Positions 29,290 to 39,880 of a DNA stretch of 64,000 nt are shown in pieces (position 1 is the first letter of the stretch; each line of letters begins with the position of its first letter). The notes under the pieces were generated by a model that was not told where the DNA came from, did not search any database, and worked only from the letters and a program-made list of their open reading frames with translations. The DNA is from Chloracidobacterium validum. Lineage in GTDB: Bacteria > Acidobacteriota > Blastocatellia > Chloracidobacteriales > Chloracidobacteriaceae. Where the stretch lies: positions 727,501-791,500 of the forward strand of contig NZ_CP072648.1 in NCBI RefSeq assembly GCF_018304825.1. Reading direction: 5' to 3'. The position numbers were made by a program, and so were the translations under genes.

Positions 29290-29583
29290 ATGCCAGTCAA
29301 TCCGGTTGATGCCAAGAAACTTGCCACGGAAAAAAACACCACCGATTTGCGCCAGATGCTGGAGCAATCCGATGAGTTGATGCGCGTCGTCATGGAAAAG
29401 GGTGACATGGAAACCGCTGAGAAGGCCGCCCAAGAGGCCGCGGCCGCGGCCGCGGCGCTTATCGTGCGGAAGCAAGGCGGGGTACGGGAATTGGCCAAGC
29501 GCGTCCGTGAGCGCGTTGCCGGTGAAAAAGATGACGCCGAAGATGAAAATACGCAGCCAACGACTGGCGACGCCGGACAGTAG
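29290..29583 (+). CDS. Small helical protein of unknown function
   Basis: 97 residues, ATG preceded by GGAAAGGA. Predicted entirely helical: 'LRQMLEQSDELMRVVMEKGDMETAEKAAQEAAAAAAALIV' region (residues about 20-59), then a basic helix and an acidic, Asp/Glu/Thr tail. Seven consecutive alanines and neighbours are encoded by a run of GGCCGC repeats at about 29435-29457. No cysteine, no membrane segment. I do not recognise the family. It stands 108 bases after the serine hydrolase and about 100 bases before the type III polyketide synthase gene, same strand. Confidence 0.6.
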   Translation: MPVNPVDAKKLATEKNTTDLRQMLEQSDELMRVVMEKGDMETAEKAAQEAAAAAAALIVRKQGGVRELAKRVRERVAGEKDDAEDENTQPTTGDAGQ

Positions 29584-29687: not shown

Positions 29688-30812
29688 ATGCCAATCTTTC
29701 TCTATGACTTTCGGCGCTGGCTGCCGGCTCATGTGACGCCGCAGGCGGTCATTCATGAGTGGCTAGCGCAAGCGCATGCCAAGGCGGGGGCAGGCGATGA
29801 ACCCACCTTGGCTGCGGCTCGCATGCGTCGCGCTTTTGAGCGGTTTGGTTGCGCCCCAGACCGCGTTGCCCAGCGCTTCCACGCGCTCGAAGACTTTACC
29901 CACCAGGACTGGGGGCGGATGCGAATTTTCGACCTCACGATGGCTTCCGAAGGTCACTCGCTGTCAGCTCGGACGGCCTATTTCGCGGAAGTTTCTTCCC
30001 AAGTGCTGGCGCAGTTGTATGCCGATGAAGCGGCTGCGCCGTCCCATCTCATTCATGTGACCTGCACGGGATATGCGTCGCCCAGCGCCGCCCAACGACT
30101 CGCGGCGGCCAAGGGGTGGTTCACGACCGTGGTGACGCATGCCTACCATATGGGCTGCTACGCCGCGTTTCCGGCTGTTCGGCAAGCCGCCGGTTTTTTG
30201 CTGTTGGATGGCGCTTCCGGTCGGGCCGATGTCGTACACACCGAACTGTGCACGCTGCACCTCAACCCGGCGCTGCACGACCCGGAGCAGCTCGTCATTC
30301 AGAGCCTTTTCGCGGATGGTTTCATTCGCTACACCGTCGAAGCCACGCCTCCAGCCGCCACATGTTTCGAGCTGTTGGCTGCCGTCGAAGAAATCGTGCC
30401 GGATTCATCAGACGCCATGACTTGGCAGTGTGCTGAGTGGGGATTTCACATGACGCTGGCGCGCGACGTGCCGGCCCGGTTGGCGCAGGCGCTCCCTGGC
30501 TTTGTGGCGCGGCTGGCAAGAAAAGGCGGACAAACCGAAGCCGCCGTCCGCAACGCGGTGTATGCCGTACACCCCGGCGGGCCGAAGATCATCGAGCAGG
30601 TTCAGGCGGTACTCGAACTCGACGCATCACAGGTGGCGGCTAGCCAGCAGGTGCTTCGCCAGCATGGCAATATGTCGTCCGCCACGCTGCCTCATGTTTG
30701 GGCGACGCTCCTTGGCGATGCTGCCATCCCAGATGGCGCGTTGATTGTCAGCCTGGCGTTTGGTCCGGGCTTGACCCTGTGCGGAAATCTGTTGGTGAAG
30801 CGATGGTCATGA
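29688..30812 (+). CDS. Type III polyketide synthase (chalcone/alkylresorcinol-synthase-like)
   Basis: 374 residues from the ATG at 29688; a GTG at 29664 would add eight residues. The catalytic triad of the chalcone-synthase family is present: C157 in 'HAYHMGCYAAFPAV', H295 in 'YAVHPGGPKII' and N328 in 'QHGNMSSAT', with the terminal 'IVSLAFGPGLTLCGNLL' (GFGPG-like loop, here AFGPG). The 'VTCTGYASPSAAQRLAA' block matches the 'V-T-C-T-G-x-x-x-P' strand. Type III enzymes extend a fatty or aryl CoA with malonyl-CoA to give pyrones, resorcinols or related rings; bacterial ones mostly make lipid phenols. The gene overlaps the next one (ATG at 30803), giving a tightly coupled set with a membrane protein and a methyltransferase. 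Confidence 0.9.
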   Translation: MPIFLYDFRRWLPAHVTPQAVIHEWLAQAHAKAGAGDEPTLAAARMRRAFERFGCAPDRVAQRFHALEDFTHQDWGRMRIFDLTMASEGHSLSARTAYFAEVSSQVLAQLYADEAAAPSHLIHVTCTGYASPSAAQRLAAAKGWFTTVVTHAYHMGCYAAFPAVRQAAGFLLLDGASGRADVVHTELCTLHLNPALHDPEQLVIQSLFADGFIRYTVEATPPAATCFELLAAVEEIVPDSSDAMTWQCAEWGFHMTLARDVPARLAQALPGFVARLARKGGQTEAAVRNAVYAVHPGGPKIIEQVQAVLELDASQVAASQQVLRQHGNMSSATLPHVWATLLGDAAIPDGALIVSLAFGPGLTLCGNLLVKRWS

Positions 30813-31273
30813 TGGTTCACGGATGGCTGGCCGCGCCGTTTCTCATCCAGGGCGCCGCCATGCTGGTGGATGAGTTCTGGTTTCACCGGCGGCGCGGATT
30901 GGGACGCTGGGAGCGGGTTGGTCACCCGCTCGATACCCTGACCGTGCTGCTCTGCTATGCCATCGCGCTTTTCGTTCCCTATTCACCCGACAGGCTGCCG
31001 TGGTATGCCGGTTGCGCGATCTTTTCCATGCTCTTTGTGACCAAGGATGAATTCGTGCATGCCAAGGCCTGTTCGGCCGAAGAGCATTGGTTGCACGCGC
31101 TGCTGTTTGGGCTGCACCCGGTAACGTTGGCAGCCGCCGCACTCATTTGGATGGACCTTCCTTCGGGCGCTGCCGCCGGGCGCGGGTTTCTGGCCGGGAC
31201 GTTTGCCTTGGTGATGGGGTTTGGGCTTTATCAGGTGCTTTACTGGAACTTCTGGAAGGCGCGGCAACCATGA
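30803..31273 (+). CDS. Polytopic membrane protein with conserved-looking His/Glu motifs, type III PKS operon
   Basis: 156 residues; start ATG at 30803 inside the end of the PKS gene (30809 and 30812 are in-frame alternatives), stop overlapping the methyltransferase ATG (ATGA). Four hydrophobic segments are visible at about 8-25, 45-65, 72-88 and 100-150 (the last is probably two). Between them lie 'LVDEFWFHRRRGLGRWERVGHPLD' (split by a turn) and 'TKDEFVHAKACSAEEHWLHALL'. Two D-E-F-x-x-H type motifs plus E-H-x-x-H and a final LHP are reminiscent of di-iron membrane hydroxylases and desaturases, but the protein is too short for the canonical eight-histidine set and I do not recognise it. Position implies it modifies or carries the polyketide product. 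Confidence 0.75.
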   Translation: MVMMVHGWLAAPFLIQGAAMLVDEFWFHRRRGLGRWERVGHPLDTLTVLLCYAIALFVPYSPDRLPWYAGCAIFSMLFVTKDEFVHAKACSAEEHWLHALLFGLHPVTLAAAALIWMDLPSGAAAGRGFLAGTFALVMGFGLYQVLYWNFWKARQP

Positions 31274-32001
31274 CGACCGTCAACAACGCGCTCTACGACA
31301 CGCTTGGCAACCGGTGGTACACCGCGCAGGATGACCCGGTGGCACTGCTCCGCGCCGAAGGCAACCTGCGCAATCCGTGGATTGCGACGGCAATTGCCAC
31401 TCGGTGTGGAACGGGCGCGGCCGTCCTGGATATTGGCTGCGGCGGTGGCTTCTTGTCGAACGAGTTGGCACGCGCTGGTTTCACCGTGACCGGATTGGAT
31501 CAATCGGTGGAAAGCTTGGCCGTGGCACAGGCATACGATGCCACGCGCAGTGTTCACTACGAGGCCGGGAGCGCCCTGGAACTACCTTACCCAGACAAGT
31601 CATTCTCGGCCGTCTGCGCCATGGACTTCCTCGAACACATCGAAGACCCGGCGCGGGTTATCCAGGAAGCGGCCCGTGTGCTGCGGACGGGTGGGTTATT
31701 TTTTGCCTCGACTTTCAATCGCAACTGGCTGAGCTGGCTGATTGTCATCAAAGGCGTCGAGTGGTTCGTTCGCAATACGCCACCAAACATGCACATCCTG
31801 CGGCTGTTCATCACGCCACAGGAGATGACGCAATACTGCCACGCGGCCGGACTGGTCAACGTGGCGTTTCGCGGGATGCGACCGCGCCTAAACGCAGCCT
31901 TCTGGCGCATGCTGTGGACGCGCGAGGTGCCGCCGGATTTCGAGTTTACATTTGTGCCGTCGCTCCTGACGGGCTACCTGGTCACGGCCGAAAAAGCCTA
32001 A
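31270..32001 (+). CDS. UbiG-like class I SAM-dependent O-methyltransferase
   Basis: 243 residues; ATG overlaps the preceding stop. Motif I 'VLDIGCGGGFL' (residues about 52-62), the acidic ribose-binding position in 'VTGLDQSVES', and 'DFLEHIEDPARVI' are intact. The segment 'FASTFNRNWLSWLIVIKGVEW' and 'FITPQEMTQYCHAAGL' match UbiG/Coq3 more closely than generic methyltransferases. UbiG methylates catechol-type hydroxyls of quinone precursors. This organism appears to use menaquinone (mqnA nearby at 39 kb), so the more likely substrate is a phenolic product of the adjacent type III polyketide synthase. Ends 7 bases before the convergent PIN-TRAM gene. Confidence 0.85.
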   Translation: MTTVNNALYDTLGNRWYTAQDDPVALLRAEGNLRNPWIATAIATRCGTGAAVLDIGCGGGFLSNELARAGFTVTGLDQSVESLAVAQAYDATRSVHYEAGSALELPYPDKSFSAVCAMDFLEHIEDPARVIQEAARVLRTGGLFFASTFNRNWLSWLIVIKGVEWFVRNTPPNMHILRLFITPQEMTQYCHAAGLVNVAFRGMRPRLNAAFWRMLWTREVPPDFEFTFVPSLLTGYLVTAEKA

Positions 32002-32008
32002 GCCTGGC

Positions 32009-33124
32009 TCAGGGCAGTTCCGAAGATGCCGGTACCACGGGCGTGCCAACGGATGGCGTATTCGTCTGGCGCAAACGCTCAGGACGTTCCGAGCGGTCGC
32101 TCAATCCGCGGTCACCACCCACGCGCTGGCCGGGTTCCTCGATCAGTTTGCCAAAAATCATTTTGCCGGCCGTTGTTTGCAAAACGCTCGTCACGCTGAT
32201 GTCCACGGCGCGTCCGATCTGTCGCCGCGCATTGTCCACGACGACCATGGTGCCATCATCGAGGTAGGCCACCCCCTGGTTGTATTCCTTGCCTTCTTTC
32301 AGAATGAAGACCTGCATCGTTTCACCCGGCAGGACGACCGGACGCAGCGCGTTGGCCAGTTCGTTGATATTGAGCACCAAGACGCCACGCAGTTGCGCGA
32401 CTTTGTTGAGGTTGAAATCGTTGGTGACGATCTTGGCGTCGAGCTGCTTGGCAAGTTCGATGAGCTTGAGATCGACTTCCCGAACATTCGGGAAGTCCAT
32501 GTCGGTGATGATTGTGTCGAGCTTTTTGTTTTTTTGAAGGCGTTGCAGGATGTCAAGTCCACGCCGTCCGCGGTTGCGCTTGGTTGCCTCGGCGCTGTCG
32601 GCGACGTGTTGCAGCTCCCGAAGCACGAACTGGGCAATGATCAGGCGCTCGCCCAAAAAGCCGGTCTCGGCGATGTCAGCAATGCGTCCGTCAATGATGA
32701 CGCTCGTATCGAGAACCAGATTCAGTGGGCGACCATCTGCGCCCGCCGCGCTTTTCGTCGAGGCGCCAAGCAGCTCCCACCACCGGTCGCTTGCGCCGCC
32801 GCGCACCATGCCCAAGTAGCCAAGGCCGAGCAAAGTCATCAATGCGACATACGTCTTGATTGAGTCCGGCAAGCCTGGCTGGAGGCTGATGATGAGGCCG
32901 ATCAGCGTCGCCGCGGCCAGTCCGGCCAAGAGTCCGAGCAAGCCCCCAAGCAGCGTTGTCATCGGACGCGATCGCAGATGGTATTCAATGGCCACGACCG
33001 CGCCGCCAACACCTAGTCCAAGGGTGGCCGACCAGAGTGCCGATTCAGATGGTTTTACCAGTAGGGCAATTCCAAGTGAAAGTAGCACCAAAATGAGTTG
33101 CGTAAACAATCGAGCACTATGCAT
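32009..33124 (-). CDS. Membrane-anchored PIN-TRAM domain protein (YacL-like)
   Basis: 371 residues. Four transmembrane segments (about 5-20, 28-45, 58-80, 88-105) precede a PIN nuclease domain about 130-255 with the acidic set in 'LVLDTSVIIDGRIADIAE', 'VLRELQHVADS', 'IITDMDFPNVREVDLKLIELA' and 'AKIVTNDFNLNKVA'. A TRAM RNA-binding domain follows ('VFILKEGKEYNQGVAYLDDGTMVVVDNARRQIG'), then a Ser/Arg/Pro-rich tail. Bacillus YacL is the usual name for this architecture; the family is thought to be an RNase, and its physiological substrate is unclear. The tail-to-tail neighbour is the methyltransferase; the 5' side faces an FtsX-type permease. Confidence 0.9.
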   Translation of the reverse strand: MHSARLFTQLILVLLSLGIALLVKPSESALWSATLGLGVGGAVVAIEYHLRSRPMTTLLGGLLGLLAGLAAATLIGLIISLQPGLPDSIKTYVALMTLLGLGYLGMVRGGASDRWWELLGASTKSAAGADGRPLNLVLDTSVIIDGRIADIAETGFLGERLIIAQFVLRELQHVADSAEATKRNRGRRGLDILQRLQKNKKLDTIITDMDFPNVREVDLKLIELAKQLDAKIVTNDFNLNKVAQLRGVLVLNINELANALRPVVLPGETMQVFILKEGKEYNQGVAYLDDGTMVVVDNARRQIGRAVDISVTSVLQTTAGKMIFGKLIEEPGQRVGGDRGLSDRSERPERLRQTNTPSVGTPVVPASSELP

Positions 33125-35796: not shown

Positions 35797-35844
35797 GTGC
35801 GTCAACGCACCAGACACATTCTGCTACGTCCCGGAGCGCACATC

Positions 35845-37155
35845 ATGCCAACCTTTCCACGCTTGCTTACGGTTCTCGTTTTGGCACTTTTTCTGGTTAC
35901 GAGCCATGACGCTTTTGGACAGAAACGCAAGCGCCGTCCGGTTTCCCGCCCGACATCTGGCTCACCAGTGGTCGCTTCCCCTATTTCCAAGGAGTCATCC
36001 ATGAACCCCGCAACCGCCCCTCAAGAAGCCGCCGGTGGCGTCAACCGCTTTGCGGTGGCATTGCACCGGCGACTTGGTCAGCAAACCGATGGCAATCTGT
36101 TTTTCTCCCCATACAGCATCAGTTCTGCCTTGGCGATGACGGCGCTTGGCGCACGCGGCGCGACCTTGTCAGAAATGAATACTGCGCTTCAGTTCCCGTC
36201 CGGCATTCCCCATGCGGCTTTCACTGCGCAGGACAACCTCATCAAAACGCCCAACGCGCCCTATGTGTTGGCGGTGGCGAACGCACTGTGGGGGCAGCGC
36301 GGGCTGGGCTTTGCGTCAGACTTTCTGGCAGCCACGAAGACGTATTACGGAGCGGGATTTGAAGAAGTTGATTTTCAGGGAAACCCGGAAGGCTCACGCA
36401 CCCGAATCAACGATTGGGTGGCCGGCCAAACCAAGGGACGCATCCCGGATTTGTTGCCGCCGGGCTTCGTGACGCCCCTGACCCGTTTGGTATTGACCAA
36501 TGCGATTTATTTCAAGGGGGACTGGGCGACCGCTTTCAACCGTGATGGCACGAATGAGCAAGACCGTTTCCAACTGGCCCGGGGCGGCACGACGACGGTT
36601 GCCATGATGAATCGGACGGGCCGCTACGCGCATTTTGACGGTGGCACATTCCAAGCGCTGACGCTGCCTTACCGTGGTCAGGAATTGGCGATGGTCATAC
36701 TGCTGCCCAATACCACCGATGGACTGCCCGCGCTGGAGCAGTCGTTGACGGCGGAGCGCCTTCAGGAAGTGACGACGAAGGCTATTGCGCGCGAGGTGCA
36801 GGTCAGTATCCCGCGCTTCAAGCTCACCTTGCGCGTGGATAGTCTCGTCAACGACCTCAAGGCGTTGGGGATGCCCTTGCCCTTCACTGAAAGCGCCGAT
36901 TTTTCCGCCATGACCAAGCAAACCAAGCTGTGGATTGATGGCGTGGTTCACAAAGCCTTCATCGAGGTCAACGAAGAGGGAACGGAAGCTGCCGCCGCTA
37001 CTGGCGTCGGGATGCGGACGACTTCAATTGCCGTCGAACCGGTGCGCCCGCTCGTGTTCCGGGCCGATCACCCATTTTTGTTTGTGATTCGGGACAACCG
37101 CAGTGGCGCGGTGTTGTTCATGGGGCGAGTGATGAATCCGTCCGCGCAAAACTGA
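35845..37155 (+). CDS. Secreted inhibitory-type serpin
   Basis: 436 residues from the ATG at 35845 (GGAG upstream); a longer frame from 35797 lacks support. Signal peptide about 1-25 ending AFGQ, a basic Ser/Pro linker to about 60, then a full serpin domain ('NLFFSPYSISSALAMTALGARGAT', 'LTNAIYFKGDWATAF', 'MVILLPNTTDGL', 'FLFVIRDNRSGAVLFMGRVMNP'). The hinge of the reactive loop, E377-E378-G379-T380-E381-A-A-A-A-T386, fits the consensus of inhibitory serpins. Counting P17 at E377 puts P1 at Thr393 and P1' at Ser394; Arg391 would be P1 if cleavage occurs two residues earlier. It probably inactivates host, grazer or self serine or cysteine proteases outside the cytoplasm. Its last 38 bases overlap the convergent MFS gene. 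Confidence 0.94.
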   Translation: MPTFPRLLTVLVLALFLVTSHDAFGQKRKRRPVSRPTSGSPVVASPISKESSMNPATAPQEAAGGVNRFAVALHRRLGQQTDGNLFFSPYSISSALAMTALGARGATLSEMNTALQFPSGIPHAAFTAQDNLIKTPNAPYVLAVANALWGQRGLGFASDFLAATKTYYGAGFEEVDFQGNPEGSRTRINDWVAGQTKGRIPDLLPPGFVTPLTRLVLTNAIYFKGDWATAFNRDGTNEQDRFQLARGGTTTVAMMNRTGRYAHFDGGTFQALTLPYRGQELAMVILLPNTTDGLPALEQSLTAERLQEVTTKAIAREVQVSIPRFKLTLRVDSLVNDLKALGMPLPFTESADFSAMTKQTKLWIDGVVHKAFIEVNEEGTEAAAATGVGMRTTSIAVEPVRPLVFRADHPFLFVIRDNRSGAVLFMGRVMNPSAQN

Positions 37156-39064: not shown

Positions 39065-39880
39065 GTGGGGGATGCCTTACCCTCGATTGCTGCGTCGGAC
39101 TACCTCAACTCGGCCGTCCTCATGGAGGACTTTCTCACCGGCGCGCAGCGCGAGTCTTGCCACTTGATAACGGATGCCGCGCCGGCGCGATGCGCCGAAC
39201 TACTCCGGCAGGGCGAAGTTACCGCGGCGTTGATCCCCGCCATCGAGTATCAGCGCCTACCCCATCTGTTAGCCGTGCCCGGTGTGGCAATTGCTTCCAA
39301 ACGCGCTGTGCGCAGCGTCGTCCTGGTGGCCAAAAAGCCGCTGCCCGAAGTCAAAACCGTTGCCCTCGATACGTCATCGCGGACGTCGGTTTCACTCATT
39401 CGTATTTTGTTTGCCGAGTTTTATCGCCAACCTGCGGCCTTTCATCCGGCACCCCCAGACATCCCACAGATGCTTGCCGACGCCGATGCGGCGGTCATCA
39501 TTGGCGATCCGGCACTGACATTCGATCCGACTGGGTTGTACGTGTTTGACTTGGCCAGCGAATGGCGGCGCTTCACGGACTTGCCCTTTGTGTTTGCCAT
39601 CTGGGCCGTCCGCGAGGCTGCGCGTGACCAGGTCGCGACACTTGACTTCATCGCTGCGCGAGACGCTGGTTTACAGGCGCGTCCGGCATTGGCGGCGCGT
39701 TACGCTCCGCGGCTTGGCTTGCCCGTTGAGACACTCAACACGTACCTGCTGGAAAACATTCACTACCGATTGGATGCTGACGATCTAGCCGGTTTGATGC
39801 GCTATTGGGAGCTGGCGGCCAAACATCGGTTGATTGACGAGGCGCACCCAGTTGTTTGGCTGAATCCGGCTGAAGGCTAG
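39065..39880 (+). CDS. mqnA: Chorismate dehydratase MqnA (futalosine menaquinone pathway)
   Basis: 271 residues from a GTG. The periplasmic-binding-protein-like fold shows 'SDYLNSAVLM', 'ELLRQGEVTAALIPAIEYQRL', 'VALDTSSRTSVSLIRILF' (T-S-x-T-S substrate-binding turn), 'ADAAVIIGDPAL' and 'DLASEWRRFTDLPFVFAIWAV'. MqnA converts chorismate to 3-enolpyruvylbenzoate, committing it to menaquinone via futalosine. The other mqn genes are not in this window. The gene ends on a CTAG shared with the convergent FAD-oxidoreductase gene. Confidence 0.92.
   Translation: MGDALPSIAASDYLNSAVLMEDFLTGAQRESCHLITDAAPARCAELLRQGEVTAALIPAIEYQRLPHLLAVPGVAIASKRAVRSVVLVAKKPLPEVKTVALDTSSRTSVSLIRILFAEFYRQPAAFHPAPPDIPQMLADADAAVIIGDPALTFDPTGLYVFDLASEWRRFTDLPFVFAIWAVREAARDQVATLDFIAARDAGLQARPALAARYAPRLGLPVETLNTYLLENIHYRLDADDLAGLMRYWELAAKHRLIDEAHPVVWLNPAEG

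Follow-up and report, generated by a model that had tools for sequence, protein, structure and literature searches.

Operons built around a type III polyketide synthase (PKS) that yield phenolic lipids are already known, and SrsC, encoded in one of them, is a flavoprotein. Streptomyces srsABC and Mycobacterium smegmatis pkqABC encode a type III PKS, a methyltransferase, and an oxidizing enzyme, which convert a resorcinol into a methoxyquinone (PMC9927152), and the tricistronic hidABC operons of cyanobacteria and planctomycetes (hierridin) combine a PKS, a methyltransferase, and an FAD oxidoreductase in the biosynthesis of alkylresorcinols (PMC10896814). In Azotobacter vinelandii, the ars cluster supplies the phenolic lipids of cysts through ArsB, an alkylresorcinol synthase, and ArsC, an alkylpyrone synthase. 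Hydroxylation of a lipid phenol followed by O-methylation also occurs in ubiquinone biosynthesis, where UbiG/Coq3 works with the hydroxylases UbiH/I/F and Coq7, and one account of that pathway (PMC5069965) gives a precedent for quinone pathways recruiting unrelated hydroxylases.

The locus described here lies in a 64,000-nucleotide stretch of Chloracidobacterium validum DNA (the window; NZ_CP072648.1, positions 727,501 to 791,500), from a two-contig genome, and consists of three genes:

29688..30812, + strand: PKS, type III polyketide synthase of the ArsB/ArsC clade, predicted alkylresorcinol synthase, 374 aa (PF02797, PDB match, triad, tree)
30803..31273, + strand: MEM, five-helix membrane protein, predicted membrane metalloenzyme, 156 aa (no family match; motifs; AF2 model)
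31270..32001, + strand: MT, UbiG-like class I SAM-dependent O-methyltransferase with a UbiG-type membrane-binding insert, 243 aa (TIGR01983, 4kdc alignment)

The three open frames, their coordinates, and the start-stop overlaps between them (about 10 nt for PKS/MEM and 4 nt for MEM/MT) had been reported in an earlier note on this DNA, and we confirmed them on the sequence. PKS starts at ATG 29688, with GTG 29664 also possible, and stops at 30812; MEM could also start at in-frame ATG 30809 or 30812, the latter giving the best alignment of its relatives. The gene after MT (32009-33124) lies on the opposite strand, and a promoter scan was uninformative. Just 5' of the operon, a small 97-aa ORF at 29290-29583 (+), with no Pfam match, is conserved at the equivalent position in another member of the genus (L017 4628-4921; the same gene is L026 4557-4850). 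Further along the window, an ORF at 35797-37155 (+) appears serpin-like (serine protease inhibitor) by eye and is conserved in the genus (L016 2-1153).

PKS combines the catalytic triad with the C-terminal chalcone synthase domain (PF02797, 78.7 bits against a Pfam cut-off of 27) that together define type III PKSs of the chalcone synthase superfamily. The intact Cys157-His295-Asn328 triad described in the earlier note is present and, like W246, invariant in 89 homologues. The best PDB matches were to Azotobacter ArsC (3vs9/3vs8, 223/217 bits; next match 94 bits), entries titled just 'Type III polyketide synthase' that we take to be ArsC and its Gly-to-Trp variant. W246 aligns with the Gly/Trp column of these two structures, where ArsC (3vs8) has Gly, and it is this residue, W281 in ArsB (resorcinols) and Gly in ArsC (pyrones), that separates the product types (PMC9927152). 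A tree built from 65 type III PKSs places the trio enzymes together with those of the Ars type, separated by a 100/100 branch from other type III PKSs of Acidobacteriota, an Srs-type enzyme from Deinococcus, and Steely1. This trio and Ars clade takes in ArsC and the plasmid-borne Ars-type PKSs from Methylosinus and Beijerinckia; because Steely1 sits on a long branch and the bootstrap had not fully settled, detail within the clade is unsure. PKS therefore groups with the ArsB/ArsC phenolic-lipid enzymes and not with an unrelated product class. The comparison with SrsA/SrsB drawn previously holds as a functional analogy only, but it is to Azotobacter-type ArsB/ArsC, not SrsA, that PKS is most closely related. 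Since PKS is placed in the Ars clade and carries an invariant Trp246, as ArsB does at that position, alkylresorcinol is the best prediction for its product.

MT (METHYLTRANSFERASE) scores 132 bits against the NCBIfam UbiG equivalog TIGR01983 (cut-off 103), which bears out its earlier assignment to a UbiG pattern, and it is the sole locus above that cut-off in its own genome. Its alignment to E. coli UbiG (4kdc) runs through the insert at E. coli residues 165-187, which in UbiG binds the membrane (PMC4796655). MT thus shares the family score and the membrane insert with UbiG/Coq3, but a role in ubiquinone biosynthesis does not fit it. The quinones reported for Chloracidobacterium strains are the menaquinones MK-8(H2) and MK-8(H4), and no quinone besides MK-8 is reported in that analysis, which may not have sought alkylquinones (PMC12816986). 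Since Chloracidobacterium is reported with menaquinones, the substrate of MT should not be a ubiquinone precursor. Elsewhere in the window, at 39065-39880 (+), we observed a gene of the MqnA/MqnD family of the menaquinone (futalosine) route (PF02621, 167 bits), which fits a menaquinone-making organism.

The earlier note had described the middle gene product as an unrecognized membrane protein. Profile searches with MEM and 28 relatives returned no credible Pfam or NCBIfam match, MEM gave no credible PHROG match, and neither sequence nor fold comparison identified a PDB relative (the best fold E-values, 0.07 and 0.23 for two models, belong to meaningless helical-bundle matches). That description captured the lack of a known family, but it missed a metal-ligand pattern, gene fusions, and a wide spread across phyla. 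The AlphaFold2 model of MEM, built from 29 sequences, is a confident one with five helices (pLDDT 93.7, pTM 0.88). MEM has four [D/E]xxxH motifs (E24-H28, E37-H41, D82-H86, and E94-H98), besides D44 and H105; the four motifs, one on each of helices 1-4, are found in 98/98 homologues, and only 0.025% of shuffled sequences contain at least four such motifs. Residues D23, E24, H28, R31, E37, H41, D44, K81, D82, E83, H86, E94, H98, H105, Q144, and W148 are invariant or near-invariant in these 98 homologues; outside that set, E24 is replaced by Thr in one fused MEM of the acidobacterial family f27 (L154). Apparent MEM stops in two genomes (G358, G373) were considered as signs of pseudogenes and rejected, as the checked stretches translate unbroken.

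Each motif lies 2-9 residues from helix ends that meet at one side of the membrane. Since Lys and Arg are concentrated in the helix 1-2 loop (3.1) and the C-terminus (2.7) compared to the helix 2-3 loop (0.35) and the N-terminus (0.2), this side is predicted to be cytoplasmic. A helical-face test on the motif residues alone was no more than suggestive (P 0.015-0.26 per helix). Since four invariant [D/E]xxxH motifs gather at the same helix end, a metal site is likely, and a bundle of helices bearing four carboxylates plus four or five His would supply the needs of a binuclear one. We therefore consider MEM, with moderate confidence drawn from sequence and helix order, to be a metalloenzyme. Its [D/E]xxxH motifs differ from canonical ExxH di-iron and His-box motifs, and neither profile searches with 29 family members nor fold comparison matched it to known membrane di-iron hydroxylases (fatty acid hydroxylase/desaturase, Coq7/AOX); another type of metal enzyme, or a non-catalytic role, is possible.

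A MEM-based scan of 85,000 species genomes yielded 131 stretches encoding relatives, of which 80 were kept. The earlier note had proposed looking for the three-gene order in other phyla and counted its loss in relatives as evidence against the reading; the order is clearly kept, as PKS-MEM-MT, in 67/80 loci, with PKS in 73/80 and MT in 73/80, and three exceptions, L045, L046, and L067, are located at the ends of contigs. All 7/7 genomes of the genus keep the order, so the arrangement is not due to chance, and the hosts span at least seven phyla (Acidobacteriota, Chlamydiota, Bdellovibrionota, Myxococcota, Verrucomicrobiota, Fibrobacterota, and Pseudomonadota), as named in records that are mostly MAGs and in which single assignments may be wrong. 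The median PKS-MEM gap is -1 nt. Among 297 Acidobacteriota, 15 carry MEM and 14 of these also have a type III PKS, compared to 110/297 overall (hypergeometric p 5e-6, kinship ignored). Across 78 loci, the pairwise distances of PKS, MEM, and MT rise together (r 0.68-0.80) to a degree that no permutation reached, a correlation that stems partly from shared ancestry. No MEM was found on the plasmids scanned, and no conserved fourth partner gene was found at trio loci; recurring neighbors that by eye resemble Tpx, a TauE-like permease, and malic enzyme are mainly confined to Chlamydiota/Verrucomicrobiota loci.

MEM and MT share a single uninterrupted frame in six f27 genomes, in one of which a contig end truncates it, and are also fused in four myxobacterial, deltaproteobacterial, or oligoflexial loci (L034, L055, L088, L092). 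A long MEM frame in L081 was rejected as a further fusion, being an upstream run-on. In three genomes (G011, G013, G212) PKS is found elsewhere while MEM and MT are still adjacent, and MEM-MT without an adjacent PKS also occurs at L056, L057, L061, L099, and L101. PKS-MEM lacks an adjacent MT at L069 and L102-L104, one of which, that of Bdellovibrio bacteriovorus kdesi (L102), comes from a complete genome, and MEM stands alone at L093 and L025. Because some genomes keep pairs or MEM alone, the trio is not strictly obligatory. Because of the fusions and the persistence of the pair without PKS, MEM and MT are the tightest pair of the trio, as expected for consecutive tailoring steps. Together, the conserved order, the MEM-MT fusions, and the distance correlations support the earlier reading of the three genes as one pathway.

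Several of the loci that depart from the trio merit description in their own right. In G212, the detached trio-clade PKS overlaps, start to stop, a FabF-like ketosynthase gene assigned by eye (L159 4946-7337), a neighbor that suggests a dedicated starter supply. The PKSs found elsewhere in the MEM-MT genomes G011 and G013 (L160, L161) branch beside Ars and not with the trio, and replacement of the PKS is possible there. One genome that is 99% complete (G007) has a MEM-MT pair (L022) and no type III PKS match at all, so either its substrate comes from another enzyme or its PKS lies in an assembly gap. The stand-alone MEM copies (L025 7451-8062, in G026, and L093 6001-6525) adjoin neither PKS nor MT, and G026 also has a complete trio.

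Set against the described systems, the trio resembles srsABC and pkqABC in having three genes with a PKS and a methyltransferase, but where those operons have an oxidizing flavoprotein it has an unrelated membrane protein. MEM likewise stands where hidABC has its FAD oxidoreductase, and the hid genes run in the order methyltransferase-oxidoreductase-PKS. A Deinococcus plasmid operon (L164) also joins a PKS and a methyltransferase with an FAD oxidoreductase. Across the pkq, Streptomyces, hid, and L164 operons, the partner is flavin-dependent wherever its family is stated or tested; no FAD-dependent oxidoreductase accompanies PKS and MT in the trio, and MEM takes that place. We looked for a flavoprotein in the place of MEM next to orthologous PKS and MT genes, but the Deinococcus operon is only analogous: its PKS and MT fall in other branches than those of the trio, and its MT belongs to another family. 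The Azotobacter ars cluster shares the 100/100 PKS clade and, in ArsB, the Trp, and the ars-type clusters of Methylosinus and Beijerinckia contain a type I PKS and a phosphopantetheinyl transferase with no adjacent MEM or UbiG-like MT. Compared to the UbiG/Coq3 system, the trio shares the MT family and membrane insert, but it has no ubiquinone pathway around it, and neither the sequence nor the fold of MEM matches flavoproteins of the UbiH type or di-iron enzymes resembling Coq7.

Our leading interpretation, which we hold at about even confidence, is that the operon makes a methoxylated alkyl-hydroquinone/quinone (a 'polyketide quinone'-type membrane lipid), with MEM as the hydroxylase. By homology and the Trp rule, PKS would extend a fatty acyl-CoA with malonyl-CoA and close the ring by aldol condensation to give a 5-alkylresorcinol. 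MEM would then hydroxylate the resorcinol ring at its predicted binuclear-type site, in place of the Srs/Pkq/Hid flavin hydroxylase; we assign it this step because it holds the place of the oxidoreductase/hydroxylase in comparable PKS and methyltransferase operons. UbiG-type enzymes require a catechol-like hydroxyl, which ring hydroxylation of a resorcinol would supply, and MT, again by homology, would O-methylate it at the membrane surface. The product may serve as a lipid-soluble redox carrier beside menaquinone in O2-respiring bacteria, the weakest step of the scheme. The class of pathway is well supported; hydroxylation by MEM and a respiratory role are inferences.

Other functions for MEM have to be weighed against this. 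It may act on the phenolic lipid as something other than an aromatic hydroxylase, such as a metal-dependent decarboxylase, dehydrogenase, isomerase, or alkyl-chain desaturase, so that the product would be a methylated alkylresorcinol or phenol and not a quinone. The invariant acid/His pattern says that MEM is an enzyme and not which one, and MEM has no homology to any oxygenase; however, the extra partner in comparable three-gene operons is an oxidoreductase/hydroxylase, and the MEM-MT fusions and the persistence of the pair point to MEM as the source of the hydroxyl used by a UbiG-type O-methyltransferase. We regard this alternative as somewhat unlikely, yet one to be taken seriously. A non-catalytic part for MEM, in which it recruits PKS and MT to the membrane as an anchor or lipid carrier, would suit a small, membrane-embedded protein that is sometimes fused to MT, but an anchor would not be expected to keep a dozen charged or His residues unchanged across phyla, and MT carries a UbiG-type membrane insert of its own, which makes this reading improbable.

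The two enzymes on either side of MEM raise alternatives of their own. PKS could be an alkylpyrone synthase and the operon product O-methylated alkylpyrones, given that its best solved match, ArsC, is a pyrone maker (PMC9927152) and that type III PKSs often make both product types. With Trp rather than Gly at the deciding position in the query and all 89 homologues, and with a UbiG-type methyltransferase acting on phenols, we think this doubtful, with only a small chance of being right. It is hardly credible that MT belongs to ubiquinone biosynthesis and sits beside PKS incidentally: it does exceed the UbiG equivalog cut-off, but Chloracidobacterium makes menaquinone (PMC12816986), MT co-occurs with and fuses to MEM across phyla, and UbiA (UbiA_proteo) was above the cut-off in 0/100 Chlamydiota genomes searched, 22 of them MEM carriers.

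Several observations fit a second quinone beside menaquinone, without proving one. All 22/22 MEM carriers among the 100 Chlamydiota genomes have a menaquinone route. Futalosine genes are rarer in these carriers (2/22 compared to 30/78 of the others; Fisher p 0.009, kinship ignored), and MenD is present in the other 20 (one partial). The trio as the sole quinone route in Chlamydiota was accordingly rejected, since MenD fills the futalosine gap and the carriers make menaquinone. A terminal oxidase (haem-copper or bd-type) is found in 45/46 MEM carriers, but such oxidases are common anyway and the figure has no matched control, so the link of the trio to O2 is weak. A type II NADH:quinone oxidoreductase lies directly upstream of PKS-MEM at two Bdellovibrio loci (L102 3516-4826, L103 3331-4602), a direct genomic link to quinone metabolism, though one seen in a single genus. 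The trio product may also be a phenolic lipid with a structural or protective role.

MEM is the unusually well-conserved, unexplained component of an otherwise familiar operon type. We found no description of the MEM family or of the cross-phylum trio in the open-access literature, and the sections of one survey that list T3PKS clusters in some Chlamydiae do so without further analysis (PMC9666466). The earlier suggestion that the pathway may be new is thereby narrowed to a variant that appears new, with a middle protein in no known family. Speculatively, and as a joint claim that we consider rather unlikely, MEM would be the founding member of a family of binuclear metal oxygenases embedded in the membrane, and the trio would be a widespread second quinone pathway, giving menaquinone-only lineages (Chloracidobacterium, environmental Chlamydiota, Bdellovibrionota, and Myxococcota) a methoxy-alkylquinone for aerobic electron transport. 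If true, this would add an undescribed membrane enzyme family to quinone and phenolic lipid biosynthesis, predict that many menaquinone-only bacteria, intracellular Chlamydiota and predatory Bdellovibrio among them, contain a redox lipid not yet reported, and explain 'UbiG' annotations in organisms without ubiquinone. As for such annotations, MT and its homologues are likely misnamed UbiG by automatic annotation, the window's host being a menaquinone organism.
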